NCBI RefSeq assembly: GCF_013282215.1
Contig: NZ_CP048103.1
Span: 2,790,001-2,854,000, forward strand
Source of the DNA: Kroppenstedtia eburnea
Lineage (GTDB): Bacteria > Bacillota > Bacilli > Thermoactinomycetales > DSM-45169
DNA: 64,000 bases
Direction: 5' to 3'
The notes beneath the pieces are model-generated. The model was not told the origin of the DNA. It worked only from the letters and a program-made list of their open reading frames with translations, and did not search any database. Below are positions 1,051 to 55,903 of this stretch, piece by piece. Numbering within the stretch: position 1 is the stretch's first letter; each line of letters begins with the position of its first letter. The translations under genes and the position numbers were made by a program.

Positions 1051-1237
1051 TTAGAAGTGTTGTGAGAAAATCGTCATACCCACAGGGCACAAGTCGTGCC
1101 CAGGGTGCTTTCGCCTCCGGTCTCGCTATCAGGGAGGGTCGGGTTTCACATGGAGTGATTTTGGATCGTAAGAACAACGAAAAACATGTGAAACCCAATC
1201 CCGACCGACCCAGCCAGCACTCATTCACAACGCTTCT
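1051..1237 (-). repeat. MITE-like repeat, copy 1 (inverted)
   Basis: This copy has ends TTAGAAGTGTTGTGA and TCACAACGCTTCTGA (terminal repeat type A) around the core GGGTTTCACAT ... ATGTGAAACCC. It lies in reverse orientation to most other copies. Between the left end and the core is the accessory module with GGGCACAAGTCGTGCCC and GGTCTCGCTAT, also seen near 31.6, 32.0, 43.3 and 55.8 kb. Apart from this repeat and one doubtful small frame, the 777-1418 interval holds no gene. Confidence 0.8.
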
Positions 1238-5445: not shown

Positions 5446-6581
5446 GACCGACTCCCCTCCACCATGAGCGCATCCAATCCTTTATAAAGAGCTTGACGCA
5501 GGAGATCCGCTTCCCCGGGATCCGCTCCATCGATCCGCTCTTCCATCTTGCGCACAAACAGACCTGCCAAACCTTCCTGCTCCCGAATCTGATCCAAATC
5601 ATAATCAGGGAGGGTTTCATCCTCAACCTCCACATAATGGAATCCCGCATCCTCCAACTGACTCAAAATCCACTCTTCCTGCAGAGAGAGATCGACAGGC
5701 CGGCGCCCGCAGAGATGGATGCGACGACATGCCTGCCGCTCCTCTCCGGGGGGGAATTTTTCAAGAATCCGCCGGATCACCTGATCCTCCGTGCCACACC
5801 CTTGCACATCCACCTGATCCACTTCATAGCGACGGGTTTGCACTGCAATGCGTTCCAGATGGAGCCCGTCCATCCCAAAGGTTCCCACTGTCACCGTCCG
5901 CTCCCCGGTCTCTTTCCATCGCAGACTTTCCGGAGATCCGGGATAACAGATCCAGGTGCCCCGGCGATTGTCCAACCGGTGAAGGGAGGGCAGATGGATA
6001 TGACCCAGGGCTGCATAGTCCAGCTCCAGGGGGAGAAGGTCTTGATCGCACAAAGGGAAATAGGGTGACTCTGTGCGATGGGATGAGTATGTTCCGTGAA
6101 CCAGCATGATCCTTCTCTCCCCCTCCTCCAGGGGAGGGACCGCGGGAAGACAGCTCTCGGGTTCTTCATAATCCGCAAAGCCTTTCCCGTAAACACGGAG
6201 GGAAAACTCCCCGTATCGGAGTTCCTCCCACTCCGAATCGAAGATGTGGACATGGGAGGGCCAGTCGAGGGTTTTGTAAAAGGAGTCTGAACGTAATGGA
6301 TCGTGATTTCCCGGAGCGATCAATACACAGGTCCCGGGAATTTGACGGATCTGTTCGATCACCCATTGTGCAGTGGACCGGCTGGCGGTCTCATGTTCCA
6401 GGAAATCACCGGCGATCAGTAAAAATGCGGCATTCCGCTCTTTCACCAATCCAATGATGGTCTCAAAAGTCCGTCTCTGTTCCTGCCGCCGGGCCCACCC
6501 CTGTCCTTCTTTTCCCTTCCATCCCTGAAAGGGGAGATCCAGGTGGAGGTCAGCAGTATGTACAAATGTGAAAGATTTCAT
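5442..6581 (-). CDS. yhaO: SbcD/YhaO-like DNA exonuclease (metallophosphoesterase)
   Basis: This 379-residue protein opens with FTFVHTADLHLD, the metal-binding HTADLHLD motif of Mre11/SbcD nucleases. It continues with IAGDFLE, APGNHDPL, LVHGTYSS and ALGHIHLP, which together form the calcineurin-like phosphoesterase site. The ATG at 6579-6581 is chosen because AAGGTGATTCAG precedes it; the open frame extends nine codons upstream without support. It is the first gene of a two-gene operon with yhaN, which overlaps it by 4 bp. Paired with the YhaN ATPase it should act as an Mre11-Rad50-like complex on DNA ends or hairpins. Confidence 0.93.
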   Translation of the reverse strand: MKSFTFVHTADLHLDLPFQGWKGKEGQGWARRQEQRRTFETIIGLVKERNAAFLLIAGDFLEHETASRSTAQWVIEQIRQIPGTCVLIAPGNHDPLRSDSFYKTLDWPSHVHIFDSEWEELRYGEFSLRVYGKGFADYEEPESCLPAVPPLEEGERRIMLVHGTYSSHRTESPYFPLCDQDLLPLELDYAALGHIHLPSLHRLDNRRGTWICYPGSPESLRWKETGERTVTVGTFGMDGLHLERIAVQTRRYEVDQVDVQGCGTEDQVIRRILEKFPPGEERQACRRIHLCGRRPVDLSLQEEWILSQLEDAGFHYVEVEDETLPDYDLDQIREQEGLAGLFVRKMEERIDGADPGEADLLRQALYKGLDALMVEGSRS

Positions 6582-6690
6582 CTGAATCACCTTGACCGGC
6601 TTGCCCACGATCGGGGCGTGGTATGTTCTGATGCTGTTTATCCCAAACTATCGTGAGATGAAAATTTCGTATCAAAGGGGAAAATGTCAC

Positions 6691-7161
6691 ATGATGCCTT
6701 TTACACGATGGATCATTGTTGCCTGTTTCATCTCTTCGTTCCTTTGGTCCCCTCTCCAAATGGCAGAGGCCCATTTCACCCTTCGTCCACCGGCAAAAAT
6801 CTCCCAGGTGGAAGGCTACCGCATCATCCATCAAAAACGAATCCCATTTAAGGTGAACCGGGGGATGCAAGCGGAATTGGAGCAAGTGCTGTCCGGGATC
6901 CATCAGATGGCCGGGATGCGGTCCTTTGAGCTTCCGGATCAGTATGTTCTATTTCGGTTTCCCCATCCTGTCGCTCTCCCCACCTCACCTCCCGGTCATC
7001 CGGTCCGGGAGATGATCATCACTCCCCCCGCCAACCTCTGGGACCCGCCGAGGTTATTGTTGAAAAACCCGCGAAACCAGTGGGTGGAGTACAAGACCAA
7101 CCGATCGCTCCTGCTGCTGGCCAATCAATTCAAGACACGGGTTAAACAACGCAGTCATTGA
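6691..7161 (+). CDS. Secreted or membrane-anchored hypothetical protein
   Basis: This 156-residue protein is divergent from yhaO. The ATG at 6691 follows AAAGGGG. The N-terminus, RWIIVACFISSFLWSPLQMAEA, is a typical signal peptide with likely cleavage after AEA. The mature part is basic and proline-rich, with VEGYRIIHQKRIPFKVNRG and no recognisable domain. Export is well supported; the function is unknown. Confidence 0.75.
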   Translation: MMPFTRWIIVACFISSFLWSPLQMAEAHFTLRPPAKISQVEGYRIIHQKRIPFKVNRGMQAELEQVLSGIHQMAGMRSFELPDQYVLFRFPHPVALPTSPPGHPVREMIITPPANLWDPPRLLLKNPRNQWVEYKTNRSLLLLANQFKTRVKQRSH

Positions 7162-7190
7162 AAAAAGGGCGGCCCCCACGGGGCCGTCTG
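7161..7190 (-). terminator. Terminator of the gene at 7214
   Basis: CGGCCCC and GGGGCCG form a 7-bp stem with a 3-nt loop. On the minus strand the stem is followed by CCCTTTTTT, so it terminates the minus-strand gene. It sits right after the stop of the plus-strand gene. Confidence 0.75.
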
Positions 7191-7213
7191 TCTGTTGAGA
7201 GGCTGTGACAGCC

Positions 7214-7642
7214 TCAATTCCTTGCTTCTTCCGGAATTTGCACCGCTTCCCCCGACAGGGGAGACAGAGTATCCGGCCAAACGGTCCCGCCGACGGGAAC
7301 GGCAAACAAAACAGCTTCCCCTTGCCGATAATACTCCATAAAGATGCGCCACATCTCGTCCTTCCACACTTCTCCCTCACACACGACTTCCGACCCGGTG
7401 GACACCGCCACCTGCAGCTCCCCTTCCGGGGTGGATTCCACCCGCAGAATGAGGCCATTTTCCCCCAATCCCTCCAACCATCGACATGCCTCCCGGGCTT
7501 CCGCTTCAGTGTCAAAATCCATGGCCACTAAGGGATGGGGTTGCCTTTCTTCATATTCATAACCACCGACAAAGAGACTGGCAGATGGATAACGTGCAAA
7601 CACGAACATCCCTCCCGCTCCATTTCCTTTCCAGAATACCAC
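7214..7642 (-). CDS. Hypothetical protein
   Basis: This is a 142-residue acidic protein without signal peptide or membrane segment. It contains FDTEAEAREACRWLEGLGENGLILRVESTPEG, which suggests a small alpha/beta domain. The start is uncertain: a GTG at 7640-7642 opens the frame, and an internal ATG at 7607-7609 has a GGGAGGG that lies too close to be ideal. It is followed by its own terminator. No family is recognised. Confidence 0.65.
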   Translation of the reverse strand: MVFWKGNGAGGMFVFARYPSASLFVGGYEYEERQPHPLVAMDFDTEAEAREACRWLEGLGENGLILRVESTPEGELQVAVSTGSEVVCEGEVWKDEMWRIFMEYYRQGEAVLFAVPVGGTVWPDTLSPLSGEAVQIPEEARN

Positions 7643-7693
7643 AATTTCCGAACCTGTGGTTTTTCCGGTCCATTCCCTGATCGAGTGATGGAG

Positions 7694-7720
7694 AAAGCTG
7701 CCACATCGGAGGTGGCAGCC
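7694..7720 (-). terminator. Terminator of greA
   Basis: GCTGCCAC and GTGGCAGC form a stem with TTTCTC following on the minus strand, just beyond the greA stop. Confidence 0.75.
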
Positions 7721-7726
7721 TTTGGT

Positions 7727-8203
7727 TCAGTGGATGGATATGATTTTAAATTCCAAGGTTCCAGAAGGGGCGGGAACCTTTATCGTCTCACCTTCCCGTT
7801 TGCCGATCAGTTCAGCACCGATCGGAGATTCATTGGAGATTTTGCCGGAGATGGGGTCGGACTCGGCGCTTCCCACGATGGTATAAGTCTCCTCGTCACC
7901 ATCGGGCAGCTCTTGGATCGTCACCTTGGCACCGACACTGACGAAGTTTTTGTTTTGTGTATCCTGGTCAATAATTTTGGCGTTGCGAACCATATTTTCA
8001 AGGGTCATAATCCGGGATTCCACAAAAGCCTGTTCCTCTTTGGCCGCATCGTATTCAGCGTTTTCACTCAGGTCTCCCTGGGCGATGGCCTCCTTCAACC
8101 GGTTGGCCACGTCTTGACGGCGTTTCGTCCTGTAAAGCTCCAGTTCATCTTTTACCTTTGCCAGACCCTCTTCGGTCAGAAGGACTTCTTTTTTCTGTGC
8201 CAT
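7727..8203 (-). CDS. greA: Transcription elongation factor GreA
   Basis: The 158-residue length is the standard GreA length. The N-terminal coiled coil includes LTEEGLAKVKDELE and the highly conserved tip GDLSENAEYDAAKEEQ (acidic residues act in the RNA polymerase secondary channel). The C-terminal FKBP-like domain has GSAESDPISGKISNESPIG. GreA stimulates transcript cleavage by backtracked RNA polymerase (known). The start has GGAGGAATCGGT upstream. It is monocistronic with its own terminator. Confidence 0.97.
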   Translation of the reverse strand: MAQKKEVLLTEEGLAKVKDELELYRTKRRQDVANRLKEAIAQGDLSENAEYDAAKEEQAFVESRIMTLENMVRNAKIIDQDTQNKNFVSVGAKVTIQELPDGDEETYTIVGSAESDPISGKISNESPIGAELIGKREGETIKVPAPSGTLEFKIISIH

Positions 8204-8534
8204 ACCGATTCCTCCTTGGAAAACAAACGGATTTTATGACTTCACCGTTTTTTGTAAGCCCTTTCACCCCAATACTTGCGTAAAAGGGGCCAATTTCATC
8301 TTGAATAGGATTGTATGCCGCCGGATGCCCGGCCAGCACAGCATGGGAGGGGAACAGCGTCTGTTCTCCACATCCGGAGAGGACTGAGAGATATAGTATC
8401 ACAAATCCTTCCACCTTAAAAGGGACTCCCATGATGGCTCAAGGACCGCTATGTAAACCGGTCTGTCTGTGAATCGCGGTACGGTGAGCCCTCCGGACCC
8501 ATCTGATTTTCGACACTTTATTTGCAAAACCCTT
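8204..8534. other. Intergenic stretch, no gene seen
   Basis: This holds the upstream region of greA. A minus-strand frame overlapping the greA 5' end has no ribosome-binding site and no recognisable protein features. I see no RNA structure that I can name. Confidence 0.4.
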
Positions 8535-8701
8535 TTAGAAGCATTGTGATTTACTGCATTCTTGGACACGGTCGGGATGGGGTTTCACATGACCTTCCAT
8601 TGTTCTTACGAGCCAAAGTCACTCCATGTGAAACCCAACCCTCCCTCTGTTACTCCCAGAACGTCTCATATTCCACGGAAATTTGAATTACCAGACACCC
8701 C
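8535..8701 (+). repeat. MITE-like repeat, copy 2 (type A left end, type B right end)
   Basis: The left end is TTAGAAGCATTGTGA (type A). The core is GGGGTTTCACAT ... ATGTGAAACCC with GAGCCAAAGTCACTCC between the arms. The right end, TTACCAGACACCCCT, is a type B end. The copy is therefore a chimera of the two end types. Confidence 0.8.
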
Positions 8702-8714
8702 TGGACACTTGAAT

Positions 8715-9689
8715 TCAAAAAGGATGGACGCGTTTGGACTCTCCGATGCCGCATAATTCCGCGACTATATTTTGGGCTGCCGTCACAGCCATCCGGCCGC
8801 GGGTTTCCCGGGTGGCACTCCCCAGATGGGGAGCCAGCACCACCGAATTCAAATCGGCCAACCCGGAAGTGAGCCGGGGTTCATCTTCATACACATCCAA
8901 GCCGGCTCCGGCGATTTCCCCCTGTTGCAGAGCTTTAACCAACGCCGGTTCATCCACCAATGCTCCCCGGGAGGTATTGATGAGATAAGCACTCTTTTTC
9001 ATCAGGGAGAGTTCCTCCCGCCCGATCAGATGATGGGTATTGCTATTGTAGGGGGCATGGAGGGAAACAAAGTCTGCTTGTTGCAACAGTTCCCGCAGGG
9101 GAAGATAACTTACACCCAGCTCTTTTTCTTCCTCTGATGAGACCCGGGTTCTGGAATGATAAACCACCTTCATCTCAAAACCTCGGGCCCGTTTGGCAAC
9201 AGCCCGTCCGATTCGCCCCATCCCGATGATGCCGAGTGTGGATCCCGACACATCTTTTCCCAGATGAAACAGAGGAGCCCACTCTTTCCACCCCCCTGCC
9301 CGGGTGAGCCGATCCCCCTCCGTTACACGGCGGGCCACATCCAGCAGCAGAGTGAAGGCCAGATCTGCCGTCGCATCCGTCAGCACTTCCGGTGTGTGGG
9401 TGACGACGATCCCCCGACGGGTCGCTTCCTCCACATCGATATTGTCAAATCCGACAGCAAAATTGCTGACCACTTTCAGATCGGTTGCAATCTCCATCAA
9501 TTCTCTGTCCACCCGGTCGGTCAACATGGATAACAAAGCATCTTTTCCCTTCACCAAATCGAGCAGTTCTTTCCGGCCCAACATCCGATCCCGGGCACCC
9601 AGCGTCACTTCGCAATGTTTGTTCAACAAATCGAGGCCTTCCGACGGAATGGCCCGGGTGACAAGGACTTTGGGCTTTTCGTTTTTCAA
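8715..9689 (-). CDS. D-2-hydroxyacid dehydrogenase (glyoxylate/hydroxypyruvate reductase type)
   Basis: This is a protein of about 324 residues of the NAD(P)-dependent D-isomer 2-hydroxyacid dehydrogenase family. The Rossmann motif is GIIGMGRIGRAVAKRARGF. Catalytic Arg lies in NTSRGALVDEPAL, Glu in GAGLDVYEDEP and His in LAPHLGSATRETR. NFAVGFDNIDVEEATRRGI and ATADLAF are typical of GyaR-like glyoxylate reductases. A TTG at 9687-9689 is preferred because CAGGGAG lies 10 bp before it; a GTG at 9698 is the alternative. It likely reduces glyoxylate or hydroxypyruvate; the exact substrate is not decided by sequence. Confidence 0.9.
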   Translation of the reverse strand: MKNEKPKVLVTRAIPSEGLDLLNKHCEVTLGARDRMLGRKELLDLVKGKDALLSMLTDRVDRELMEIATDLKVVSNFAVGFDNIDVEEATRRGIVVTHTPEVLTDATADLAFTLLLDVARRVTEGDRLTRAGGWKEWAPLFHLGKDVSGSTLGIIGMGRIGRAVAKRARGFEMKVVYHSRTRVSSEEEKELGVSYLPLRELLQQADFVSLHAPYNSNTHHLIGREELSLMKKSAYLINTSRGALVDEPALVKALQQGEIAGAGLDVYEDEPRLTSGLADLNSVVLAPHLGSATRETRGRMAVTAAQNIVAELCGIGESKRVHPF

Positions 9690-15065: not shown

Positions 15066-15178
15066 CTAGAAGCGTTGTGATTTACTGCCTTTGAAGGCGG
15101 TCGGGATTGGGTTTCACATGACCTTCCGGTTGTTCTTCCGAGCCAAAGTCACTCCATGTGAAATCCAACCCTCCCTGC
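15066..15178 (+). repeat. MITE-like repeat, copy 3
   Basis: The type A left end CTAGAAGCGTTGTGA is followed by the core GGGTTTCACAT ... ATGTGAAATCC ending in CCAACCCTCCCT. No right terminal repeat is visible, so this copy looks truncated. The remainder of the 15011-15472 gap holds only the candidate promoter near 15.4 kb. Confidence 0.75.
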
Positions 15179-15409
15179 TTTCCATTCCAATCACAAATCC
15201 CGTTCATACTTTAAGATACCAAAAACTTGTCACGCTTGCGAGAGGGTTGGGACCCCCGCCCCTGACGATTCCTCCGCAACACCGCGGCACCCTGCCTCAC
15301 GATATGTATGATGATGGAATGCCCGCGATGACTGTAATCTGAAAGCAACTTTCTTCATTCTTCAGGCAAAAACCACAAAATGGTATCGATGGTTTGGGCG
15401 ATCGCGGTG

Positions 15410-19046: not shown

Positions 19047-19184
19047 CTAGAAGCGTTGTGATTTAGTGCGTTTGAAGGCGGTCGGGATTGGGTTTCACAT
19101 TCCATTCCGTTGTTCTTCCGAGCCAAAGTCATTCCATGTGAAACCCAACCCTCCCTGTGAATGGCTTTTTCACAACGCTTCTAG
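19047..19184 (+). repeat. MITE-like repeat, copy 4 (complete reference copy)
   Basis: This 138-bp copy is bounded by perfect 15-bp inverted repeats, CTAGAAGCGTTGTGA and TCACAACGCTTCTAG. The core arms GGGTTTCACAT and ATGTGAAACCC flank a spacer ending in GAGCCAAAGTCATTCC. It is the clearest example of the type A element. Confidence 0.88.
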
Positions 19185-19347
19185 AAGCATTGTGATTTAG
19201 TGCGTTTGAAGGCGGTCGGGATTGGGTTTCACATTTCGTTCCGCTGTTCTTACGAGCCAAAGTCACTCCATGTGAAACCCAACCCTCCCTCTGTTACTCT
19301 CACAACGTCTCACATTCCACGGAAATTGAATTGACCTGCCACGCCCT
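19181..19347 (+). repeat. MITE-like repeat, copy 5 (tandem, chimeric ends)
   Basis: It shares its first CTAG with the end of copy 4, so the junction reads AACGCTTCTAGAAGCATT, a near-perfect palindrome. The right end, GACCTGCCACGCCCTAA, is type B. A further type A fragment (AAAGCGTTGTGATTCTGGG) follows immediately. The rest of the gap to 19456 contains a short hairpin (GGACTGT ... ACAGTCC, 19378-19416) of unknown role. Confidence 0.82.
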
Positions 19348-19455
19348 AAAAAGCGTTGTGATTCTGGGCGTTCAAGGTGGACTGTGGGGTGTTTACCCAC
19401 CGTACCCAAGACAGTCCGGTGGTGGTTTTCCCGATCATCGATGCGCCGGTCCAAT

Positions 19456-21744: not shown

Positions 21745-21911
21745 GGGCGTGTCTGATCAATCTTGGTCCGGGGCCGGGCCGGTCGGGATGGGGTTTCACA
21801 TGTCCTTCCGTTGTTCTGACCAGCCAAAGTCTCCATGTGAAACCCCACCCTCCCTCTGTTGTTCTCACAGCGCGTCTCACATTCCTGCGGAAACTTGATT
21901 ACCAGACACAT
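21745..21911 (+). repeat. MITE-like repeat, copy 6 (type B ends)
   Basis: The left end is GGGCGTGTCTGATCAA and the right end is TTGATTACCAGACACA. The core is GGGGTTTCACAT ... ATGTGAAACCCC. It lies in the 435-bp gap upstream of the acyl-CoA synthetase, which otherwise holds no gene. Confidence 0.82.
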
Positions 21912-22326: not shown

Positions 22327-22697
22327 CCTCGGTTTCACCTCCTTGTGGATGGTACTCTTATATTGCTTAGAATCGGAACTTGCAATGCGTGTGAAATTCT
22401 GGAATGGTGATAGGCGCCGCGCAAGGATCAATCCGGGGATTCTCCGCATAGGATATCCTAAAACGGAAGCAATACAACGAAGACCCTTGCCCCCATACTC
22501 CCTTCCGCAAAACTTCCCGCCGGGAAGGATGGCACCCTTCATCCCGGAGGTTCAGACCAGGCAGTGCCTGTGTAAAGGTCGCTCGATCAGTGCACGACTC
22601 CCCTTCCAAATTCCGGTTAATCAACAGCCATTCCTGAAGTTTTTTGGAACGGGTCTTATAACCCCTCTCTTTACCAATTCCAGCGAGGTGTTGTCCG
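22327..22697. other. Intergenic stretch, no gene seen
   Basis: These 371 bp contain the upstream region of the SASP gene (minus strand) and of the CotJB-like gene (plus strand). Several GC-rich inverted segments are visible, such as GAAGGATGGCACCCTTC near 22.5 kb, but I recognise no riboswitch or RNA family. Confidence 0.35.
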
Positions 22698-25859: not shown

Positions 25860-25991
25860 AGAAGCGTTTCGATTCAGTTGCATTCTGAGTCGGTCGGGAT
25901 TGGTTTTCACATTCCGTGCCAAAGTTCTGTTGGCCATAGACGCCATGTGAAACCCACCCCTCCCTGTGACCACTTTTTCACAACGTTTTGG
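25860..25991 (+). repeat. MITE-like repeat, copy 7 (degenerate)
   Basis: Degenerate type A ends (CAGAAGCGTTTCGA and TCACAACGTTTTGG) surround TTTTCACAT ... ATGTGAAACCC. It lies between minD and the YkvA gene. The spacer has diverged more than in other copies. The rest of 25820-26182 has a TTGACA-18-TGTTAT promoter-like match at 26108-26137 that leads to no clear gene. Confidence 0.7.
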
Positions 25992-27268: not shown

Positions 27269-27271
27269 AAT

Positions 27272-27556
27272 TCAGAAAGGGCCGGGTCTCCCGGGGCCTC
27301 CCGGCGGACCAAATCCCGGACCGGGACCCGGCCCAAATCCGGGACCACCCGGACCACCCGGCGGTGGTATCGGAGGTCCCGGCGGAGGCCCCGGCGGTCC
27401 TCCGAAACCTCTGACCCCCGGCCCCGGCCCTCCGGGGCCTCTCGGACCCCCGGGTCCCCTGGGCCCTCTGAAGCCCCTTCTGCCAGGTCCCCTGGGCCCT
27501 CCGAAACCTCTTCTTCCCCGACGACCCAGCACTCTACTCATAAAAAATCCGAGCAT
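27272..27556 (-). CDS. Gly-Pro-rich, collagen-like small protein
   Basis: This 94-residue protein is almost entirely Gly, Pro, Arg and Phe. It has irregular G-P-R-G-P-G-G and G-F-G-P-G-P-G repeats, partly in Gly-X-Y register. The N-terminus MLGFFMSRVLGRRGRRGF is basic. The start follows CAGGAGGGGAAATC, and a proper terminator lies after the stop, so the gene is credible despite low complexity. A spore surface or coat role is plausible but not shown. Confidence 0.75.
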   Translation of the reverse strand: MLGFFMSRVLGRRGRRGFGGPRGPGRRGFRGPRGPGGPRGPGGPGPGVRGFGGPPGPPPGPPIPPPGGPGGPGFGPGPGPGFGPPGGPGRPGPF

Positions 27557-31594: not shown

Positions 31595-31744
31595 CCCTGC
31601 ATAGCGAGACCGGGGGCGAAAGCCCCCTGGATTTACTGCGTTTGAAGGCGGTCGGGATTGGGTTTCACATTTCGTTCCGTTGTTCTTACGAGCCAAAGTC
31701 ACTCCATGTGAAACCCAACCCTCCCTGTGAATAGCTGCTTCTAG
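31595..31744 (+). repeat. MITE-like repeat, copy 8 (first of a tandem triplet)
   Basis: It begins with the accessory module (CATAGCGAGACCGGGGGCGA), then the core GGGTTTCACAT ... ATGTGAAACCC, and ends in GAATAGCTGCTTCTAG. The final CTAG is shared with copy 9. Confidence 0.82.
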
Positions 31745-31875
31745 AAGCATTGTGATTTGTGATTTATGCGTTCATGGCCAGTCGGGATTGGGTTTCACAT
31801 TCCATTCCGTTGTTCTTCCGAGCCAAAGTCATTCCATTGTGAAACCCAACCCTCCCTGTGAATAGCTGCTTCTAG
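31741..31875 (+). repeat. MITE-like repeat, copy 9 (middle of the triplet)
   Basis: It is bounded by CTAGAAGCATTGTGATTTG and GCTGCTTCTAG, with the same core. It is nearly identical to copy 10 over its first 130 bp, which suggests recent duplication. One difference is an extra T in CCATTGTGAAACCC. Confidence 0.85.
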
Positions 31876-32060
31876 AAGCATTGTGATTTGTGATTTATGC
31901 GTTCATGGCCAGTCGGGATTGGGTTTCACATTCCATTCCGTTGTTCTTCCGAGCCAAAGTCATTCCATGTGAAACCCAACCCTCCCTGCATAGCGAGACC
32001 GGGAACGGAGTGACCTTGGCGAGACTTGTGCCCTGTGGTATGACGGCTTTTTTCAATGTT
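31872..32060 (+). repeat. MITE-like repeat, copy 10 (last of the triplet)
   Basis: It shares CTAG with copy 9. After the core comes the accessory module (GCATAGCGAGACCGGGAACG through GACTTGTGCCCTGTGG) and a degenerate right end, TTTTTTCAATGTTTCCAGG. That end overlaps the last codons of the gene whose stop is at 32053. The whole 31526-32052 gap is occupied by these repeats. Confidence 0.82.
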
Positions 32061-40462: not shown

Positions 40463-40568
40463 ACCGGAATTTGGCCGGTTTATCGGAACACATTGGTGGG
40501 TGATAACGTATAGAACCCTTGTCTCCGAAGGTTTAAGCTTATGCCCTACGACCCCTGGATGATATTTC

Positions 40569-40645
40569 AAGTTGGGTTTCACATGAAGTGTCTTTGGATC
40601 ACCAGAACTTTGGCGCCGGAATGTGAAACCCAAATCCTGACCGTC
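40569..40645 (-). repeat. MITE-like repeat, copy 11 (divergent core only)
   Basis: The arms TTGGGTTTCACAT and ATGTGAAACCCAA are intact, but the inner sequence has diverged and reads in inverted orientation (GTGTCTTTGGATCACCAGAAC). No clear terminal repeats remain. It is an old copy. Confidence 0.65.
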
Positions 40646-40689
40646 CAAGAACACAGTAAATCCCAAAGTTTCCCAAGAACCTATTGGAA

Positions 40690-40735
40690 GAAAAAATGAT
40701 CGGTGGCAGTCTCCAGTTGCCACCGATCATTTTTG
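40690..40735 (-). terminator. Terminator of panD
   Basis: AAATGATCGGTGGCA and TGCCACCGATCATTT form a long stem with a short loop, ending in a T run on the minus strand. Confidence 0.9.
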
Positions 40736-40737
40736 AT

Positions 40738-41124
40738 TCAGGGCTTCACTGCACCGTGAGCTTCTCCCACCAACATTTCCTCAATCCGGTTTCCTTCTCC
40801 CATGACTGCCACTCGAGGACGGTAAACCTCTGCCTCGTCTTTGTCCAGCATCACATAGGAAATAATGATCACGATATCACCGGGTTGAACCAAGCGTGCG
40901 GCTGCACCGTTTAAACAGATGATCCCGCTGCCCCGGGGACCGGCGATCACATAGGTTTCAAGACGGGCCCCATTATTGTTGTTCACGATCTGAACCTATT
41001 CATTGGGGAGGATATTCACCTTTTCCAAAATGTTTATGTCGATGGTGACACTTCCCACATAGTTCAGATTCGATTCGGTCACTGTCGCCCGGTGGATCTT
41101 TGATTTCATCACTGTCAAGAGCAT
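40738..41124 (-). pseudogene. panD: Aspartate 1-decarboxylase panD, broken by an in-frame TAG
   Basis: The frame encodes a full-length PanD except for one TAG at 40996-40998 (codon 43). Before it, [20 protein letters not shown] contains the Gly24-Ser25 self-cleavage site that makes the pyruvoyl group. After it, [17 protein letters not shown] and [20 protein letters not shown] are intact to a normal stop at residue 128. The interrupted position (ILPNE[12 protein letters not shown]) is normally a lysine, so AAG to TAG is the simplest change. No reading-frame shift is needed. The ATG at 41122-41124 overlaps the upstream stop as TAATG. Intact PanD makes beta-alanine for pantothenate. A late restart at GTG 40984-40986 would lack Ser25. 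Confidence 0.88.
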
Positions 41125-41930
41125 TATTTCACCTTCTTTTTTGATTTGGTATATTTATATTTTTTGATGATGTAGTTACGTATGTGAATCACGTTGGCAA
41201 CCATTTCTTTGTTTCCGATCTCCTTGAACATTTTTCGGAACATGGGATCCGAATTCATTTCAATAAACCACAATTTTCCATTTTTATCGACAGCCATATC
41301 CAAAGCCAAAATTCGCAAATCAAAATAGGATCCAAGCGCCTGAGAAATTTGATGAGCCAGATCCCCCAGCTTGATCATCAAATCAGTGGAATTCAGATGA
41401 CTGTTATCCTTCAGTACATGATCTAATGGCATGGCTTTGGCTCCCCTGATATGATTGGTCACAATTTGGCCCTTTTTTGCAACGCGGGCCAACCATCCGG
41501 AGATCTGCCATCTTTCTTCCGGTTTATGCATCAAGATCCGGAGATCAAAGGGCAGGCCGCCAAAGGTAGCCAAGTCAATTCCTTGTTGAACAATAAATTT
41601 TTCGTTTAGTTTGATCTCATTTACTACCTCTTCAATCACCTCTTCGAGGGAACAGGTTTTCACCTCTTTTTTGTAACTGTAGCAAAGCTCGTATAATGAC
41701 TTTTTTTGAGACCTGGGCTCTTGTTGTGAAACGTTTCTAATCCGGAGAATCTGGTTCCCCCTGTGATTTGAATTCGGTTTAACGAAAACCGTGGGATAAA
41801 CACTCAGCATATCTTTCAATGCTGTAACTGAAAACCAAAGGGTTTCCGGAACATATGGAGAGATCCAGGGATCCTTCAGAAGGACTTTGTTATATTTCAT
41901 CTTATTGGAGACATATCTTTGTACAGCCAC
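41124..41930 (-). CDS. YheC/YheD family ATP-grasp protein (spore coat-associated), copy 1
   Basis: This 268-residue protein starts [20 protein letters not shown] and has the YheC/D core: [17 protein letters not shown] (ATP-grasp lysine and loop), [20 protein letters not shown], and the C-terminal metal/nucleotide segment [21 protein letters not shown]. In Bacillus YheC and YheD are coat-associated (known); their substrates are unknown. It is followed by panD with a one-base overlap and preceded by copy 2 after a 49-bp gap, so the three genes form one unit. Base composition is AT-richer than the flanking genes. Confidence 0.92.
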
Positions 41931-41979
41931 TGTGACCCTCCTCCCTTCTGAATATTACAACCCCGTTGATACATCGAAT

Positions 41980-42732
41980 CTATTGATACATCGCTTCAAT
42001 ATACTTCTGTGCACTCAGGGCTTTATTGTACATTTGCTCGTTCCCGAAGTCCCTGAACAACTTCCGTACCACCGGGGTTGTGTTCGCTTCGATGAACCAT
42101 ACTTTCCCCTTTTTGTCTACAGCCATATCCACGCCCAAAACCCGCATACCATAGTAGAATCCAAATATTTGAGAGATTTGATGCGCCAAGTCAGCCAATT
42201 CCCTGGATATTTCCGTTGCATTCAGCTTTTTTTCCGCCAGTACCTGTTCCAAGGGAAGCAATTTTCCTCCTTTCGACCAGTTTGTAACGGCTTTGTTGTT
42301 TGTGGAGACTCTTGCAAACCAGCCGGAAATCTGCCATTTATCTACAGGTCTGTGCATGGTGATTCGTACATCAAAAGCTTTTCCCTTGTAGGTGGCAACA
42401 TCGATCCCTTGTTGAATAATGTACGATTTTCCTGACTTAATCTGGCTCTCTACTTTCCTCAAGGTATCCTGCAGATGAGCTGTTTCAGTTCCATCCTTAT
42501 AGCTGTAGCAAATTTCATACTTCATCTTGTTCACTTTGTTAATCCGAATGATCCCATTGCCGCGATATCCTGTATCAGGCTTTACAAAAACAATGGGATA
42601 AGCAGTCAGCATCTCTTTCAGTGCTTCTGTGGAGAAACGGACCGTTTTTGGAATATGGGGAGCAACTGTGGGGTCTTTTAGAAGGATGCTGTTTTTCCTC
42701 ATTTTGCTTGCCACAATTCTTTGAACTGCCAT
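41980..42732 (-). CDS. YheC/YheD family ATP-grasp protein, copy 2
   Basis: This 250-residue paralogue starts MAVQRIVASKMRKNSILLKD, very like copy 1, and shares FVKPDTGYRGNGIIRI, IIQQGIDVATYKGKAFDVRI and LGVDMAVDKKGKVWFIEANT. The similarity and tandem position indicate local gene duplication. It is the first gene of the unit running into panD. No signal peptide is present. Confidence 0.92.
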   Translation of the reverse strand: MAVQRIVASKMRKNSILLKDPTVAPHIPKTVRFSTEALKEMLTAYPIVFVKPDTGYRGNGIIRINKVNKMKYEICYSYKDGTETAHLQDTLRKVESQIKSGKSYIIQQGIDVATYKGKAFDVRITMHRPVDKWQISGWFARVSTNNKAVTNWSKGGKLLPLEQVLAEKKLNATEISRELADLAHQISQIFGFYYGMRVLGVDMAVDKKGKVWFIEANTTPVVRKLFRDFGNEQMYNKALSAQKYIEAMYQ

Positions 42733-43055
42733 AGCGGTTCACTTCCTTCTATGTTTCTTACAATATATTCATATGAAGCTTTCTACAATTGCGTGCATAC
42801 CTTATAGAAGAGAGATTAAAAAAAGGCCGTTCAAGGATCACTTCCCTCCCCCCTCCTCTCCACGAGCCAATTTACGTGCAACGCAAACAAGTCCGTTTTG
42901 CTTGGTTGGATTTTCACACACAAAAAAATCCTTCACCAGCGGCTTCACCCATTCGGATAAGAATAGTGAAGCCGATCGATCGGGAAGGATTTGGAAATTA
43001 TGCCCCTTGATGGATTGACCAGGGATCTGGGTCAGGAGGAGCAGTGTTTCCGGGA
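42733..43055. other. Intergenic stretch upstream of the YheC/YheD unit
   Basis: This holds the upstream region of copy 2. Two plus-strand frames at 42773-43018 are short, lack ribosome-binding sites and show no protein-like pattern. I see no further feature. Confidence 0.35.
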
Positions 43056-43227
43056 TTAGGGCGTGTTTGATAAATCTATATCTGGGGCCGGTCGGGATGG
43101 GGTTTCACATTCCATTCCGTTGTTCTGACGAGCCAAAGTCACTCCATGTGAAACCCCACCCTCCCTCTCTTGTTCTCACAACGTGTCTCACATTCCTTCG
43201 GAAACTTGAATGACCAGACACGCCCTA
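43056..43227 (+). repeat. MITE-like repeat, copy 12 (complete type B reference)
   Basis: This 172-bp copy has ends TTAGGGCGTGTTTGATAA and TGACCAGACACGCCCTAA. The core is GGGGTTTCACAT ... ATGTGAAACCCC. It is the clearest type B element. Confidence 0.86.
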
Positions 43228-43317
43228 ATACATGCAACGGAGTGCCCACGTCACCTCAGGCATGTTGATTACACATATTTCAGGTGGGAAAATCGTGTTC
43301 TGCCATGTGGCCGTTGC

Positions 43318-43375
43318 AACTCATAGGGCACAAGTCGCGCCGGGATCGCTTCGCTCCCGGTCACGCCCCTGACAG
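43318..43375. repeat. Fragment of the repeat accessory module
   Basis: TCATAGGGCACAAGTCGCGC and CGCTTCGCTCCCGGTCACGC resemble the module found next to the core in copies 1, 8, 10 and 14. No core is attached here. Confidence 0.55.
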
Positions 43376-43407
43376 CACACGACTCCCTTCCGCCACCCAT
43401 TTTCCGG

Positions 43408-44515
43408 TTAATCACCCGCCGTCAATATTTTCTCAGACCCCGGCAGGTCATCAAACCAACTCGCATTTTCCGGAAGGTCGAAAACCATGAATTTCCCATA
43501 GAAGTCCGGGTTTCTGGCCTGATGATACTTGAGGTAAATCTTGTTGCCCTCCACCGCAAGAATTTCAATCTTGCCAGTGGAGTGGCTCATCGCGTAACGG
43601 ATCCGCTTACCGAGACCCGAGGTGCGGGCTTTGGCCTGTTCAATCACTTCGTAGGCTTCCCGGAAAGTGAGAACGAAGTCTGCGTTGCCGGCTACAGGGC
43701 GGTTCTGAAAAAAGTAGTAGGGAGTCACTCCAGCCCATGACAATTTGTCAAGAAGTTCGGCCAATATTTCCGGATCATCGTTAATCCCCTTCAACACCGG
43801 GGTCTGGTTGACGAGGATCACACCGGCCCGCTGTAAGGCATCGATCGCCCGATAAGACTGATCGGTCAACTCCCGTGGGTGGTTAAAGTGAGCCATGACA
43901 TGAATTCTTGAATCACCCAGGGAATATTCCGACAGTGTATCCAACAGTTCTTTATCCTCGTAGATCCGCATTGGATTAAAAGAGGGAAGTTTGGTTCCGA
44001 AGCGGATGATTTTTACATGGGGAATTTCCCTCAGCCTCTCTAAAATCCCCCGAATTTTCCGTGTAGCCAGGATCAGGGAGTCGCCCCCCCGTGAGGAGAA
44101 CATTGTTGATCTGTGGATTTTTTCGGATATATTCAACACCCGGAGCCACATCCAGAGAGGCTTCATGGACGTCGTTTCGAAAGAGACGTTTTCGAAAGCA
44201 AAAGCGACAGTATGCTCCACACACTTCTGAGACGATGAGCAAGGCAGTCGTCTGATATTTATGCTGACATCCGGGAACAACATAGTTGGTGTATTCGTCT
44301 GAAGCATCCCACTTTCCATACTCATCCAGCTCAGCTTCGCTGGGGATAATCAGTTTGTAAATGGGGTCGTTTGGATCATTCCAATCAATCAGAGAAAGAT
44401 AGTAATCATTTAACCGAAAAACAAATTTGTTCGTAATTTTGGTTAGCTTCTCTCGTTTTTCTTCCGGGATCTCCTGTATTTTTCTGATATCAGTGATGTA
44501 ACGCGGCAACACCAT
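43408..44515 (-). pseudogene. KamA/lysine 2,3-aminomutase-like radical SAM gene with a one-base frameshift
   Basis: Two overlapping frames make one radical SAM aminomutase of about 368 residues. The first frame (ATG at 44513-44515 after GGAGGGTGATTTC) carries the cluster motif CGAYCRFC (C99, C103, C106), PGCQHKYQ and NNVLLTGG. The second continues with GDSLILATRKIRGILERLRE, VMAHFNHPREL and YYFFQNRPVAGN to the normal end. They join at a run of seven Gs (44084-44090 on this strand) where six would give the conserved LLTGGDSL. This may be true decay, a slippage-prone switch or a base-calling error. The family converts lysine to beta-lysine or a related substrate. Confidence 0.85.
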
Positions 44516-44639
44516 GAAATCACCCTCCAGTGTTATTTTTCTCATACAACATGACATAGATGTTATCCAATTAATGAATGAAGAGTTGGAAATATACTTC
44601 AGGGTATTCAAGTGCATAGAAAAATTGGAGGGGAGTAAC

Positions 44640-44822
44640 ATGCACAAAATTGATCTCCGAGTGTCTTCACCCCCCTTCGCTCCCCAGTCGAGTCCGAAAC
44701 CCTATACCGAAGCACCTTCAGAGAGGGCACGCGGTTTGACGCAAAACGGAAATCGACTCCCTCACACCTATGTCACCGAATTCAGCTCGCAAAATCATTC
44801 TTACATTCATCCATACGCCTGA
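44640..44822 (+). CDS. Small Pro/Ser/His-rich hypothetical protein
   Basis: This 60-residue protein begins MHKIDLRVSSPPFAPQSSPK. The ATG follows TTGGAGGGGAGTAAC, a strong ribosome-binding site. It lies between kamA-like and a YheC/YheD gene, on the opposite strand. Composition is that of a small disordered or coat-type protein. No family is recognised. Confidence 0.5.
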   Translation: MHKIDLRVSSPPFAPQSSPKPYTEAPSERARGLTQNGNRLPHTYVTEFSSQNHSYIHPYA

Positions 44823-44844
44823 AGGGGAATTTCATCCGTAAAAT

Positions 44845-45594
44845 TTACCTGGCGATCTTCCTCATTCTTTTAATTTTTCGATACAGACTCTTGTTGGGTA
44901 GCAATCCAAAATTCCCTTTAATCAGTGGTTCAAGATTTACTTCGTAAATCCAGATCTTCCCCTTGGTATCAATGGCCATGTCCACGGCGAATTCCTTCAG
45001 ATTCGGATACATTCGACTCACATGGTTGACAGCTTGGGTGGCGCATTTTTCCAACCGGTGAATCATTTTTTCTTTTTCCTTTTTGGAATATTTCAAATGT
45101 CGGTTAAAGAGCTTCTCTAGAGATGTCGGCGTACCACCCAAATGAGAGGTTGTCACAACGCTTCCCCGTTCCCCCACCCTTCCACAAATCCCGCCGACTC
45201 TCCATTCACCACGGATTCTTAGTACATGGCAACGAAGATCAAAGTGGCGTCGATCTCTTGTCACACTGTTAATCGCCTGTTGGATGATATATCTCCTGTC
45301 TTTCGTGAGTTCATCTATCCTTTTCCAAACACCCTTTTGATTCACATATTCTTGGCGGGATCCGTACCTGATTTTGTATCGGTCATCTTTTAATTTCTCA
45401 ACTCGGATCACGCCCCGGGACTTTCTTCCCCGATCCGGTTTGAGGTAGACCTTTCCATACTTTTTAATCATCCGTTGAAACGGCTCCTTGTAAAGCAACT
45501 CCTTTGCTGGGATATGGGGAGACACCTGAGGAGTATGAATAAGCTGGTAAGCCACTGCCAGTTTACTTTTTACATGGTGTTTTTTAATAGACAT
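44845..45594 (-). CDS. YheC/YheD family ATP-grasp protein, copy 3
   Basis: This protein of about 249 residues has VYLKPDRGRKSRGVIRVEKL, IIQQAINSVTRDRRHFDLRC, GGICGRVGERGSVVTTSHLG and EFAVDMAIDTKGKIWIYEVN, the YheC/D pattern. It is basic and more divergent than copies 1 and 2. The ATG at 45592-45594 follows AAGGGTGATAGGTAGG. It is transcribed alone, 250 bp after copy 4. Confidence 0.9.
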   Translation of the reverse strand: MSIKKHHVKSKLAVAYQLIHTPQVSPHIPAKELLYKEPFQRMIKKYGKVYLKPDRGRKSRGVIRVEKLKDDRYKIRYGSRQEYVNQKGVWKRIDELTKDRRYIIQQAINSVTRDRRHFDLRCHVLRIRGEWRVGGICGRVGERGSVVTTSHLGGTPTSLEKLFNRHLKYSKKEKEKMIHRLEKCATQAVNHVSRMYPNLKEFAVDMAIDTKGKIWIYEVNLEPLIKGNFGLLPNKSLYRKIKRMRKIAR

Positions 45595-45759
45595 CCTACC
45601 TATCACCCTTCAACAGTTTGTCGTTCATTTTATTCCCCGGAACCAGACATGGAAGGGCTGAAGTATATACTGTGTTGAAAAAAAGTGTGGGATCACACAT
45701 CTGAGAGCTGTAGAACAACCGCTACGAATCCACTCCCCTCAGGGAAACACAAGTACACA

Positions 45760-45791
45760 AACTCCCGGCCCCTGAGAACCGGGAGTTTTTT
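45760..45791. terminator. Terminator after YheC/YheD copy 4
   Basis: ACTCCCGG and CCGGGAGT pair, with TTTTTT on the plus side and TTTGTG on the minus side. It fits the minus-strand gene only weakly. Confidence 0.5.
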
Positions 45792-45805
45792 ATGAACCAC
45801 AGCGA

Positions 45806-47155
45806 TCAGGATTGAAAGCCGGAAAGCTGCTTGGCGTATTCCATTGGATTTCGGAAAGCGCGGTCGATGGTTTTTCTGTCAAAGGATTGATAAAGCGAAT
45901 CCTTTGCCGGTTTGGCATTGGATTCTATGAAATAGATATTCCCAGAGGTATCCACACCAAAGTCGATACCCATTTCCCCGAAAGGTCCGTAAATATCTTC
46001 AATCCTTTGGTAGATCCGGATCAGAAACTGATGGATTTTATCTTCCAGTTTATCGGAATAATGATTACCGTGCTTTTCCATAAATTCATCCAACCGAACA
46101 ATATTGGAGCCCGTCCTTGAACTGGTGATTGGAAATCCTTCTTTCCCTATTCGAACCGCTATGGAATTGATCTCCAACTTCCCTTTACTGTTCCTTTGTA
46201 CAGTCGCGCGCATATCCACGTTTCCCTTATTCACCTGAATCAGGCGGATCCCCTGTTGCATAATGACTTGATCATTACCAAAAAAATCAGCGACTTTATG
46301 ATTTACTCTTTGCAGAGAGAATGACTGACCGGTCTGCAGGGTTTTTCTGTATACACTGTATTTGTACTTATTCCCTTTTGACTCCAATCGCATAATGCGG
46401 GTCCCCATACTGCCGATGGCGGCTTTTAAGTAAATGATGGGATTTCTTTTCAGCATTTTTTTCAAATGTAAAGGTGTGTATTTGTATGTTTCCGGCAGGT
46501 ATTCCTTGACGTCACGATAACGACCCAAGTGACGGGATAAATCCCATTTGTCAAAATAATGAACAGCATTCACTTTGGGAATCTTCATCTCATCCATTTT
46601 ATTCCTGGCCAAGACATGATCCTCATATTTCCGGTAAGCTCTTCCGCTGGCACGGTCATAGAGAACATCAGGAAAAGGAAGTATCCGTTTCTCCCACTTT
46701 TGGGATATGGGATTGAAAATCGTCCCATTGATCGTATTCGTGTTCCACTGCAGATTACGGATACTGAAATGATAAAGAACTGTTCTCGCTTTCTGGCTGG
46801 CCTTCAAAATCTCCAAAGTACGGAAGGAAGCATCTTGCCGATTCAACCGGCTGATATGCTTCCGGCTTGTGAACAGGCCGATCAAGGGTCCCAATTTCAG
46901 ACTGTTTCCCTCCACCTTTGAAAAACATTCCGTTCCGTTGAACAAACCGCTTTTCAAGAGAAGATCTTCAGACAAAAGTATTCTTTTGTCGGATGAGTTA
47001 CGAATTATTTCAACCACTGTATCCCACTGTCCCACTTTCAACTTGATCTTTGAAGATGTTTTCAACTGGCCGAAGCATGGGTCAGGCAGCGAAACTGTTT
47101 TCCGGAAACCAGTCAATTCTCCAACTTGTACTGGGACAACTGGATATTTCCCCAT
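45806..47155 (-). CDS. YheC/YheD family ATP-grasp protein, copy 4 (long form)
   Basis: This 449-residue protein has a C-terminal YheC/D ATP-grasp domain with IIYLKAAIGSMGTRIMRLES, IMQQGIRLIQVNKGNVDMRA and EMGIDFGVDTSGNIYFIESN. The extra ~200-residue N-terminal domain (VGQWDTVVEIIRNSSDKRILLSEDLLLKSG in pieces) is the one found in full-length YheC and YheD. A TACCCTATG at 47188-47196, read on the minus strand as CATAGGGTA, matches the sigma-K -10 pattern 33 bp upstream, consistent with mother-cell expression. Confidence 0.92.
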   Translation of the reverse strand: MGKYPVVPVQVGELTGFRKTVSLPDPCFGQLKTSSKIKLKVGQWDTVVEIIRNSSDKRILLSEDLLLKSGLFNGTECFSKVEGNSLKLGPLIGLFTSRKHISRLNRQDASFRTLEILKASQKARTVLYHFSIRNLQWNTNTINGTIFNPISQKWEKRILPFPDVLYDRASGRAYRKYEDHVLARNKMDEMKIPKVNAVHYFDKWDLSRHLGRYRDVKEYLPETYKYTPLHLKKMLKRNPIIYLKAAIGSMGTRIMRLESKGNKYKYSVYRKTLQTGQSFSLQRVNHKVADFFGNDQVIMQQGIRLIQVNKGNVDMRATVQRNSKGKLEINSIAVRIGKEGFPITSSRTGSNIVRLDEFMEKHGNHYSDKLEDKIHQFLIRIYQRIEDIYGPFGEMGIDFGVDTSGNIYFIESNAKPAKDSLYQSFDRKTIDRAFRNPMEYAKQLSGFQS

Positions 47156-47258
47156 AGACTAATCCCATCCTTCTTGTGACGTTGGTTTACCCTATGCACC
47201 TTTCTTATCAATTGATTGGACATTGGTTGATAATCGGTGCAAGTGGAGGCGGTAAATC

Positions 47259-47294
47259 AAAAAAATCCGCAGCTGCCATTTATTTCCTGCGGAT
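47259..47294 (-). terminator. Second terminator-like hairpin downstream of the subtilase gene
   Basis: ATCCGCAG and CTGCGGAT pair and are followed by TTTTTTT on the minus strand, about 100 bp after the subtilase's own terminator. It may end a separate short transcript. Confidence 0.55.
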
Positions 47295-47393
47295 GGGAGC
47301 TGGCAAAATTGCGGAAGAGACTCGGTTCAATAGATTTGGGCCGGTTACCTTGCCTTCCACGAGCCTGGGTGCAAGAATCACATAGATACTCGG

Positions 47394-47417
47394 AAAAAAC
47401 CGCCCGGTAACAGGCGG
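47394..47417 (-). terminator. Terminator of the subtilase gene at 47452
   Basis: CCGCC and GGCGG stem with TTTTTT on the minus strand, 35 bp after the stop. Confidence 0.8.
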
Positions 47418-50288: not shown

Positions 50289-50566
50289 TAAAAAAAATAA
50301 ATCCCCGCCCCATAAGGGACGAGAATTTCTCGCGGTACCACCCTTTTTGGATCCTCATCGAGGATCCCTCTCCAAAACACATGGATGCCATGTGCCCATC
50401 CGGATAACGGCGGATTCCGTTCCGGGTTCACCGGAGATCATCTCCCGGCTTCAACCGTCAGCTCCAAGGTGTAATTCGATTGACGGACTGATACCGGTTC
50501 ACAGCGACCACCGGCTCTCTGCAATCAGGTTCCGCCAGCCTACTTTGCCTCTTCAACGCGTTTTAG
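50289..50566 (-). promoter_or_regulatory. T-box leader of the DAHP synthase gene (probable tyrosine specifier)
   Basis: Read on the minus strand, the leader contains the T-box motif AGGGTGGTACCGCG (50331-50344), followed by a terminator helix (TCTCGTCCC with GGGGCGGGGA) and ATTTATTTTTTTT. Stem I shows AGAGAGCCGGTGG and GTGAACCGGT, with lower helices CTGAT/ATCAG and GGCGGA/TCCGTC. In the specifier loop the right strand reads GAATTACA after an AGTA on the left, giving TAC (Tyr; 50471-50473) as the likely specifier. Uncharged tRNA binding would prevent termination. Confidence 0.88.
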
Positions 50567-55656: not shown

Positions 55657-55903
55657 TAGGGTGTGTCTGATAAATCTCTGGGCCGAGTCGGTCGGGATTG
55701 GGTTTCACATTCCGTTTTCGTTGTTCTGACGATCCAAAATCACTCCATGTGAAACCCAACCCTCCCTGCATAGCGAGACCGGGGGCGAATGCCCCCTTGG
55801 CGAGACTTGTACTGGTGAGTGCATAGCGTGACCAAGAAGCGAAGCGACCCTGGGCACGACTTGTGCCCTACGGGTATGACGGCTTTTTCACAACAGCTTC
55901 TAG
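55657..55903 (+). repeat. MITE-like repeat, copy 14 (type B left end, type A right end)
   Basis: The left end is TAGGGTGTGTCTGATAAATC (type B) and the right end is TCACAACAGCTTCTAG (type A). The core GGGTTTCACAT ... ATGTGAAACCC is followed by a long accessory module. The last bases provide the stop codon of the gene at 55900. Nothing else occupies the 55532-55899 gap. Confidence 0.84.

Follow-up and report, generated by a model that had tools for sequence, protein, structure and literature searches.

The palindromic repeat at positions 19047-19184 raises the question of whether it belongs to a mobile element and why the spacer between its arms is kept as well as the arms themselves. The window, by which we mean the whole stretch of 64 kb that was analysed, comprises bases 2790001-2854000 of the single 3.565-Mb contig of the Kroppenstedtia eburnea genome. 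The interval 19047-19184 turned out to be one whole element with a CTAG duplication on each side, and the element is a 134-bp unit that recurs at many places in the genome. We consider it likely that such elements are MITEs that are moved in trans and that carry a portable hairpin core, which would act as a DNA hairpin on the lagging-strand template. Below we describe the copies and their ends, their movement, the hairpin and its orientation, and the other explanations of the core.

Copies of the core and their ends

All thirteen arm pairs that the preliminary description had counted in the window are present. In ten copies the arms are exact on both sides, and the other three (at 15.1, 25.9 and 31.8 kb) have one mismatch in one arm. 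The positions given for the set hold, except that the first copy lies at 1.13-1.21 kb and not at 1.05 kb. Eleven of the thirteen have a common orientation, the reversed ones being those at 1.1 and 40.6 kb. With up to two mismatches, GGGTTTCACAT matches the window 44 times (26.2 expected), a number reached in 0 of 100 shuffles. The exact arm pair occurs 243 times genome-wide, and a reversed control pattern was not found; K. guangzhouensis has 38 exact pairs, and the other 59 relatives examined have none. A profile of the 81-bp core identified 124 copies (score >=40) in 864 kb of sampled sequence, a density that is biased upward, as the stretches were partly chosen near already listed copies. 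None of these 124 copies is contained in a gene predicted by our own script. Copies below 40 bits (3/88 and 4/43) were excluded from the counts of gene context and orientation. In the open-access literature, searched by titles and abstract openings, no published description of this repeat was found.

Table 1. Elements, target duplications and core copies in the window
Feature	Position	Strand	Remarks
Core copy	1127..1206	-	Left end LA-like, right side with RC repeat; model R2 E 1.4e-13
Core copy	8570..8650	+	LA-RB hybrid ends; K. guangzhouensis site without core
Core copy	15099..15180	+	LA left end, right end unrecognised; K. guangzhouensis site without core
CTAG 4-bp target duplication, left copy	19047..19050	.	
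Type A element LA-RA	19051..19180	+	Left end AAGCGTTGTGA, core 19080-19160, right end TCACAACGCTT
CTAG 4-bp target duplication, right copy	19181..19184	.	Common to the next element
Hybrid element, LA left and RB right	19185..19349	+	Core 19214-19294; outer limits by eye
Core copy	21781..21859	+	Type B (LB-RB); empty in K. guangzhouensis; insertion composite, ~290 bp
Core copy	25892..25969	+	Diverged type A; K. guangzhouensis site without core
Core copy, tandem array member 1/3	31650..31730	+	RC repeat on the left
Core copy, tandem array member 2/3	31780..31861	+	
Core copy, tandem array member 3/3	31911..31991	+	RC repeat on the right
Diverged core copy	40560..40641	-	LA-like left end
Core copy	43090..43170	+	Type B ends TTAGGGCGTG / CACGCCCTAA
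Core copy	55690..55771	+	LB left end; right side with RC repeat

The core has a near-uniform layout across copies, GGTCGGGAT-arm-loop-arm-ACCCTCCCT, over 81 bp. Its left flank belongs to one of two sets, LA (AGAAGCRTTGTGATTTA...) or LB (AGGGYGTGTCTGATAAATC...), and its right flank to RA (...GGCTTTTTCACAAYGCTTCTAG) or RB (...GAATTACCAGACACGCCCTA); a repeat of about 50 bp, RC, which is often tandem, also occurs to the right of the core. The 124 copies comprise 25 LA-RA, 33 LA-RC, 24 LB-RB, 7 LA-RB, 3 LB-RA and 8 LB-RC combinations, and 24 copies have an unrecognised end. Matched end combinations predominate and hybrids also occur. The core unit is common to the exchangeable end sets A and B, and it would represent a portable hairpin module that swaps MITE chassis by recombination inside the conserved core. 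The elements themselves are about 130 bp long, have no transposase gene and carry the terminal inverted repeats AAGCRTTGTGA/TCACAAYGCTT, as expected for MITEs. The two end systems on one core, the RC repeat, the spread across the order and the fork-opposed orientation are features that the preliminary description did not contain.

The RC repeat (GCATAGCGAGACCGGGAACGGAGTGACC..GGCGAGACTTGTGC..) is present at 31600-31640, 1062-1125 and 55772-55840 of the window and at many places in the loci L092-L111. Relatives also have an RC-like unit, both in MITEs of other kinds (L123, L124) and, in one case (L133), in the loop of a B-type core, and GGAGCGAAGCGACC of the repeat resembles the internal-loop strands of the core. 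Cores can themselves be tandem, with a period of about 131 bp for the three at 31650-31991 of the window, and four consecutive cores with a period of 176 bp are present at G024:C1:922707-923308.

Insertion sites and candidate transposases

The mobility of the elements is well supported by a comparison with K. guangzhouensis, whose DNA is mostly 85-92% identical and largely collinear across the compared stretches. One copy is flanked by CAAG on both sides, and K. guangzhouensis has a clean empty site with a single CAAG-like sequence in which one base is changed. A second clean empty site corresponds to a copy with a CTAT duplication, and the same comparison shows a B element inserted at CTAG next to an older A copy. 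The sites at 15.1, 19.0 and 25.9 kb are not clean, since they show further changes relative to K. guangzhouensis, and at the 19.0-kb site a decayed core is retained in that genome. Orthologous sites could be tested for 28 of the 124 copies, and the core is missing at 17 of these, while 3 of the other 11 are remnants with 15-19 bits; this sample is not random, as 34 of the 37 target stretches were chosen because they carry cores. The MITE-like reading of the preliminary description agrees with the missing cores at these 17 sites, the clean empty sites, the 4-bp target duplications and the transposon relics with matching ends in relatives. It had named copies confined to the window, or a lack of empty sites, as findings against mobility, and neither was the case.

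The insertion sites resemble CTAG or, more generally, YTAR, where type A duplicates 4 bp and type B TA. Identical 4-mers flank 16 of the 23 scored LA-RA copies, including the non-palindromic TTAG, CTAC and CTAA, and only 3 of the 21 scored LB-RB copies, which mainly have the central TA in common. End patterns with up to two changes were accepted in this scoring, and 2 of 25 LA-RA and 3 of 24 LB-RB copies were left out. This pattern indicates that A and B apparently differ in the duplication that they make. The only dated B insertion has CTAG on both sides and is compatible with either duplication length.

An 87-bp element of the K. eburnea genome (G000:C1 ~968061-968147; block 845001, 123061-123147) has A-like ends and an RC-like inside and contains no core. 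It is flanked by a CAAG duplication, and the K. guangzhouensis site is clean and empty, which indicates that A-like ends also move without the core.

Other differences between the genomes were noted in passing. An insertion of another kind at 22464-22632 of the window is absent in K. guangzhouensis, has a flank overlap of 9 bp and contains GGTTAATCAACAGCC; the GGTTAATCAACAGCC-bearing sequence recurs elsewhere in K. guangzhouensis. About 7 kb at 40466-47394 of the window, including two core copies, is missing from the corresponding site of K. guangzhouensis. The stretch at G000 ~851073-853815 (block 845001, 6073-8815) is 98.8% identical to K. guangzhouensis (G001:C4) and has a core copy inside, while its neighbours are 89-92% identical; it is probably the result of a recent exchange.

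Candidate transposase partners for both end types were found only as decayed or partial copies. The A end is present in 7 of 61 genomes. In K. guangzhouensis (L149) there is a decayed IS1182 transposase with two NF033551 pieces (E 4.7e-34 and 6.1e-18), each below the full-length cut-off, whereas PF05598 and PF13751 exceed theirs. One side of this relic ends in an exact TIR A, and the other may have a decayed end with two mismatches, so type A elements have ends in common with an element encoding an IS1182-family transposase. A second IS1182 fragment (L151) has an A-like end, and in G018 an A end precedes DNA that by eye resembles the start of an IS1182-like transposase. For type B, one TIR B end adjoins a decayed match to the IS5-family transposase model NF033580 in each of G018:C33 (23.2 bits) and G007:C172 (46.5 bits), both below the cut-off of 110. 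The K. eburnea genome itself has no IS1182 or IS5 match above the cut-off (one PF13751 and one NF033580 match fall below it). Its two DDE_Tnp_1 (PF01609) genes were considered as partners and their ends do not match; four IS5 genes of G008 (L164, L167, L177, L180) likewise have ends that differ from TIR B. The transposase gene with matching ends that the preliminary description had envisaged exists as relics and partial copies in relatives, but an intact partner with A or B ends was not found in the K. eburnea genome in searches with PF01609, PF13751 and NF033580. Judged from these relics in relatives, the copies are MITEs that are most likely moved by IS1182- and IS5-type transposases, and these enzymes would act in trans.

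The hairpin core within Kroppenstedtia and across the order

The core is a hairpin with a co-varying stem and nearly fixed internal-loop strands. The clearest data come from alignment A6, which contains 22 cores from six other genomes and has no Kroppenstedtia or G007 rows. In A6, 90.9% of the stem cells are paired, and 15 of the 16 pairs show two-sided changes. There are 70 two-sided cells compared to 18.4 after shuffling (a level reached in 0 of 500 shuffles) and 5 one-sided cells. When the partner was slid, pairing was at most 62%. RNAalifold predicts 13 pairs in A6, and all 13 have two-sided changes. These figures must be read with the origin of A6 in mind, as its rows were found and aligned with model R1, which contains the stem and thereby favours pairing. 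Swapping right arms among 28 non-Kroppenstedtia elements reduced pairing from 0.886 to 0.590 (the largest value in 1000 swaps was 0.673). In alignment A3, with 32 cores from Kroppenstedtia and G007, pairing is 88.3% compared to 84.7% and two-sided cells number 20 compared to 6.2 (0 of 500 shuffles for each), while two of the five measures are weak: the number of pairs with a two-sided change was matched in 39 of 500 shuffles and the number of pair types in 212 of 500. For alignment A5, reverse-strand duplicates of the palindrome were removed before counting, which reduced it from 69 to 49 rows.

The internal-loop strands CTYCGCTCC and AAGTCRCTC, which flank the inner region, are nearly fixed across genera. 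The preliminary description had put the conservation of the spacer on a level with that of the arms; this is correct and even understated, because in comparisons of different genera the stem is less conserved than the loop strands. In G007, where A-type elements have the core arms GGGGTTCCACAC/GTGTGGAACCCC, the core differs from that of Kroppenstedtia by three compensated differences per 12-base arm and by one difference in 28 loop bases. In two copies of the K. eburnea genome, L099:7213-7293 and L099:10737-10817, the usual loop is combined with inner stems that differ (TTCCCC/GGGGAA and TTCCGC/GCGGAA), which points to turnover of the stem within one genome. A search of Rfam gave no match to the core in the window (gathering threshold) or at six loci (E up to 5), and the six Rfam matches listed at those loci fall outside the cores. 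The window also contains a T-box leader at 50312-50565 on the - strand (132.6 bits).

Model R1 gave matches at E <=0.01 in 9 of 61 genomes, with distant cores in G002, G008, G009, G012, G024 and G035. The flanks of these and other distant cores were compared by inspection. Flanks resembling CTAGTGCCCC...GGGGCACTAG surround cores in G002, G008 and G027, and flanks resembling GCTGACAAA...TTGTCA were seen, with less certainty, in G008, G014 and G018. No terminal repeats were recognised by inspection in the flanks of the G035 cores. These flanks suggest that, outside the K. eburnea genome, the core has at least one end type beyond A and B, and probably two. Model R2, a covariance model built from A6, recovers all thirteen window copies, with E between 3.2e-20 and 7.6e-9; given how A6 was made, R2 is not fully independent of Kroppenstedtia. 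It gave one extra match, at 27270-27338 of the window (E 0.00084), which is GC-rich and of low complexity and was taken as chance. A covariance-model scan of relatives had been proposed in the preliminary description. With R2 it revealed copies across the order, and at E <=1e-4, with at most 11 candidates scored per genome, matches were obtained in 22 of 398 genomes drawn from the class, 18 of them in the order itself. The four genomes outside the order (G096, G200, G242 and G333) have a single candidate match each, which by eye looks core-like in G242 and G333. Matches to the arm pattern in Saprospiraceae (L073, L076) were unrelated CACATAG repeats.

Orientation, function and known systems

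The core is not oriented at random relative to the replication fork. Replichores of the K. eburnea genome were assigned from GC skew and from a reading frame at base 1 that by eye resembles dnaA, and 91 of the 124 copies were found against the fork (p 1.9e-7). In K. guangzhouensis, 40 of 52 cores are against the fork (p 1.3e-4), with a limit of 35 bits, 2 of 54 copies on short loci excluded and the replichore taken from 8-kb skew, which was correct in 99 of 100 test pieces from the K. eburnea genome. Two more distant genomes, G007 (20/29, p 0.06) and G035 (16/25, p 0.23), are not significant alone; pooled, they have 36 of 54 cores against the fork (p 0.02). For these two the better strand of the palindrome was chosen by hand, and the counts exclude L290:10592, L322:312 and L327:7492 (20, 25 and 19.5 bits) and keep one G007 copy of 28.6 bits. 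Because tandem or inherited copies do not represent independent events, all these p values are somewhat too small. Sorted by neighbouring genes, fork-opposed and fork-aligned cores number 55:17 where both genes are co-directional with the fork, 5:4 where they are head-on, 16:6 where they are convergent and 15:6 where they are divergent. The absence of a bias among the nine copies next to head-on genes means that transcription is not fully separated from replication.

Together, these features suggest that the core most likely acts as a DNA hairpin, either in replication or in transposition. It would be exposed on the lagging-strand template and recognised by its loop and shape, not by the sequence of its stem, and it would either aid transposition or be tolerated or useful chiefly in the fork-opposed orientation. 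One-sided G-U steps are nearly absent, so the arms are probably kept matched at the DNA level and not by selection on RNA; the excess of two-sided over one-sided changes in A6 suggests the same, as it fits such matching better than slow evolution by way of G-U. Hairpin-templated correction would be one example of a mechanism. More tentatively, it is possible that the core is a module of the whole order with its own descent, which has been passed among unrelated transposon chassis because of its activity at the fork as single-stranded DNA of the lagging-strand template. If this is true, the core would be a common cis-acting passenger that lets MITEs spread or be tolerated.

A rather unlikely alternative is that the core is a structured RNA, such as a regulatory element, a processing site or a small RNA, which travels on MITEs and whose covariation results from selection on the transcript. 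The strong covariation of the stem and the near-fixed internal-loop strands across genera would fit this, and elements that are opposite to their co-directional neighbour genes (40 of 54 in a first sample) would have one strand preferentially transcribed. However, the orientation bias remains where neighbours give no direction of transcription, since 31 of 43 copies in convergent and divergent contexts are against the fork (p 0.005). If one strand acted as RNA, tolerance of G-U would be expected on that strand. The cross-genus set has 14 G-T compared to 5 A-C mismatches, but this excess (p 0.06) was obtained with a model biased towards G-U, and the 137 Kroppenstedtia and G007 cores gave no signal, with 21 G-T and 23 A-C mismatches. 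Five one-sided changes against 70 two-sided ones and the lack of an Rfam match to the core, in the window and at the six loci, also argue against an RNA.

It is also conceivable, although we find it doubtful, that these are ordinary MITEs in which the core is a functionless leftover, the palindrome is kept by mutational processes and the orientation results from the choice of target. Hairpin-templated correction by itself can keep arms matched, and A-type ends move without a core as well. In addition, intergenic placement and stable stem-loop transcripts are common in bacterial MITEs, as described in part of PMC10969869. Against this, the loop strands are kept across genera and between differing ends while the stem changes, and a preferred orientation of the core is seen in LA (54/74) as well as LB (26/37) elements, whose terminal inverted repeats are near symmetric. 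We consider it improbable that the core is a REP- or REPIN-like unit with its own Y1 (RAYT) transposase that was inserted into other MITEs: the high copy number, the intergenic location, compensatory changes of the hairpin as described in part of PMC3116915 for REPINs and the G035 copies without recognised terminal repeats would fit, but 111 of the 124 copies in the K. eburnea genome have an LA or LB left end, and what inserts is the complete MITE, with duplications of 4 bp. It is very improbable that the hairpins are bidirectional terminators of transcription that recombination has spread, since, although the hairpins are stable and intergenic and the RA end has a T-run about 15 bases past the stem, no T-run immediately follows the stem in either direction by inspection, and convergent gaps hold 22 of 124 copies for 13.8% of the intergenic length, which is no strong preference.

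The DNA hairpin that we favour differs from what is known of small bacterial repeats. Bacterial MITEs are usually viewed as decayed insertion sequences with an irrelevant interior, whereas here the interior is the conserved part. It is common to elements with different ends, occurs across the order, keeps its fold despite turnover of the stem and is directed relative to replication, so that whether the interior of a MITE has a selected function becomes directly testable. Like the MITEs derived from IS1182 and IS5, the elements are short, non-coding and intergenic and have target duplications and terminal repeats that match an insertion sequence in type A and may do so in type B; they differ in that a single internal hairpin core is combined with either kind of ends and, in relatives, with further ends. 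With ERIC, Correia/NEMIS, RUP and BOX they have in common that they are high-copy intergenic palindromic repeats. As far as is known, those families differ from the core in sequence. BOX repeats are modular, and none of the four is known to place one core on several end systems. ERIC reaches up to 711 copies in Photorhabdus, according to part of PMC10969869. The REPINs that are associated with RAYT also show compensatory changes in their hairpin stems (described in part of PMC3116915). In contrast to REPINs, the fixed motifs of the core lie in the inner loop of the hairpin, and in the K. eburnea genome it stands between ends that match DDE-type insertion sequences in type A and probably do so in type B. 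Gram-positive plasmids that replicate by the rolling-circle mechanism have single-strand origins (sso). These are long hairpins with imperfect pairing; their unpaired motifs are conserved, and they function in one orientation. The core would resemble them in these respects, but its copies are chromosomal, numerous and mobile.
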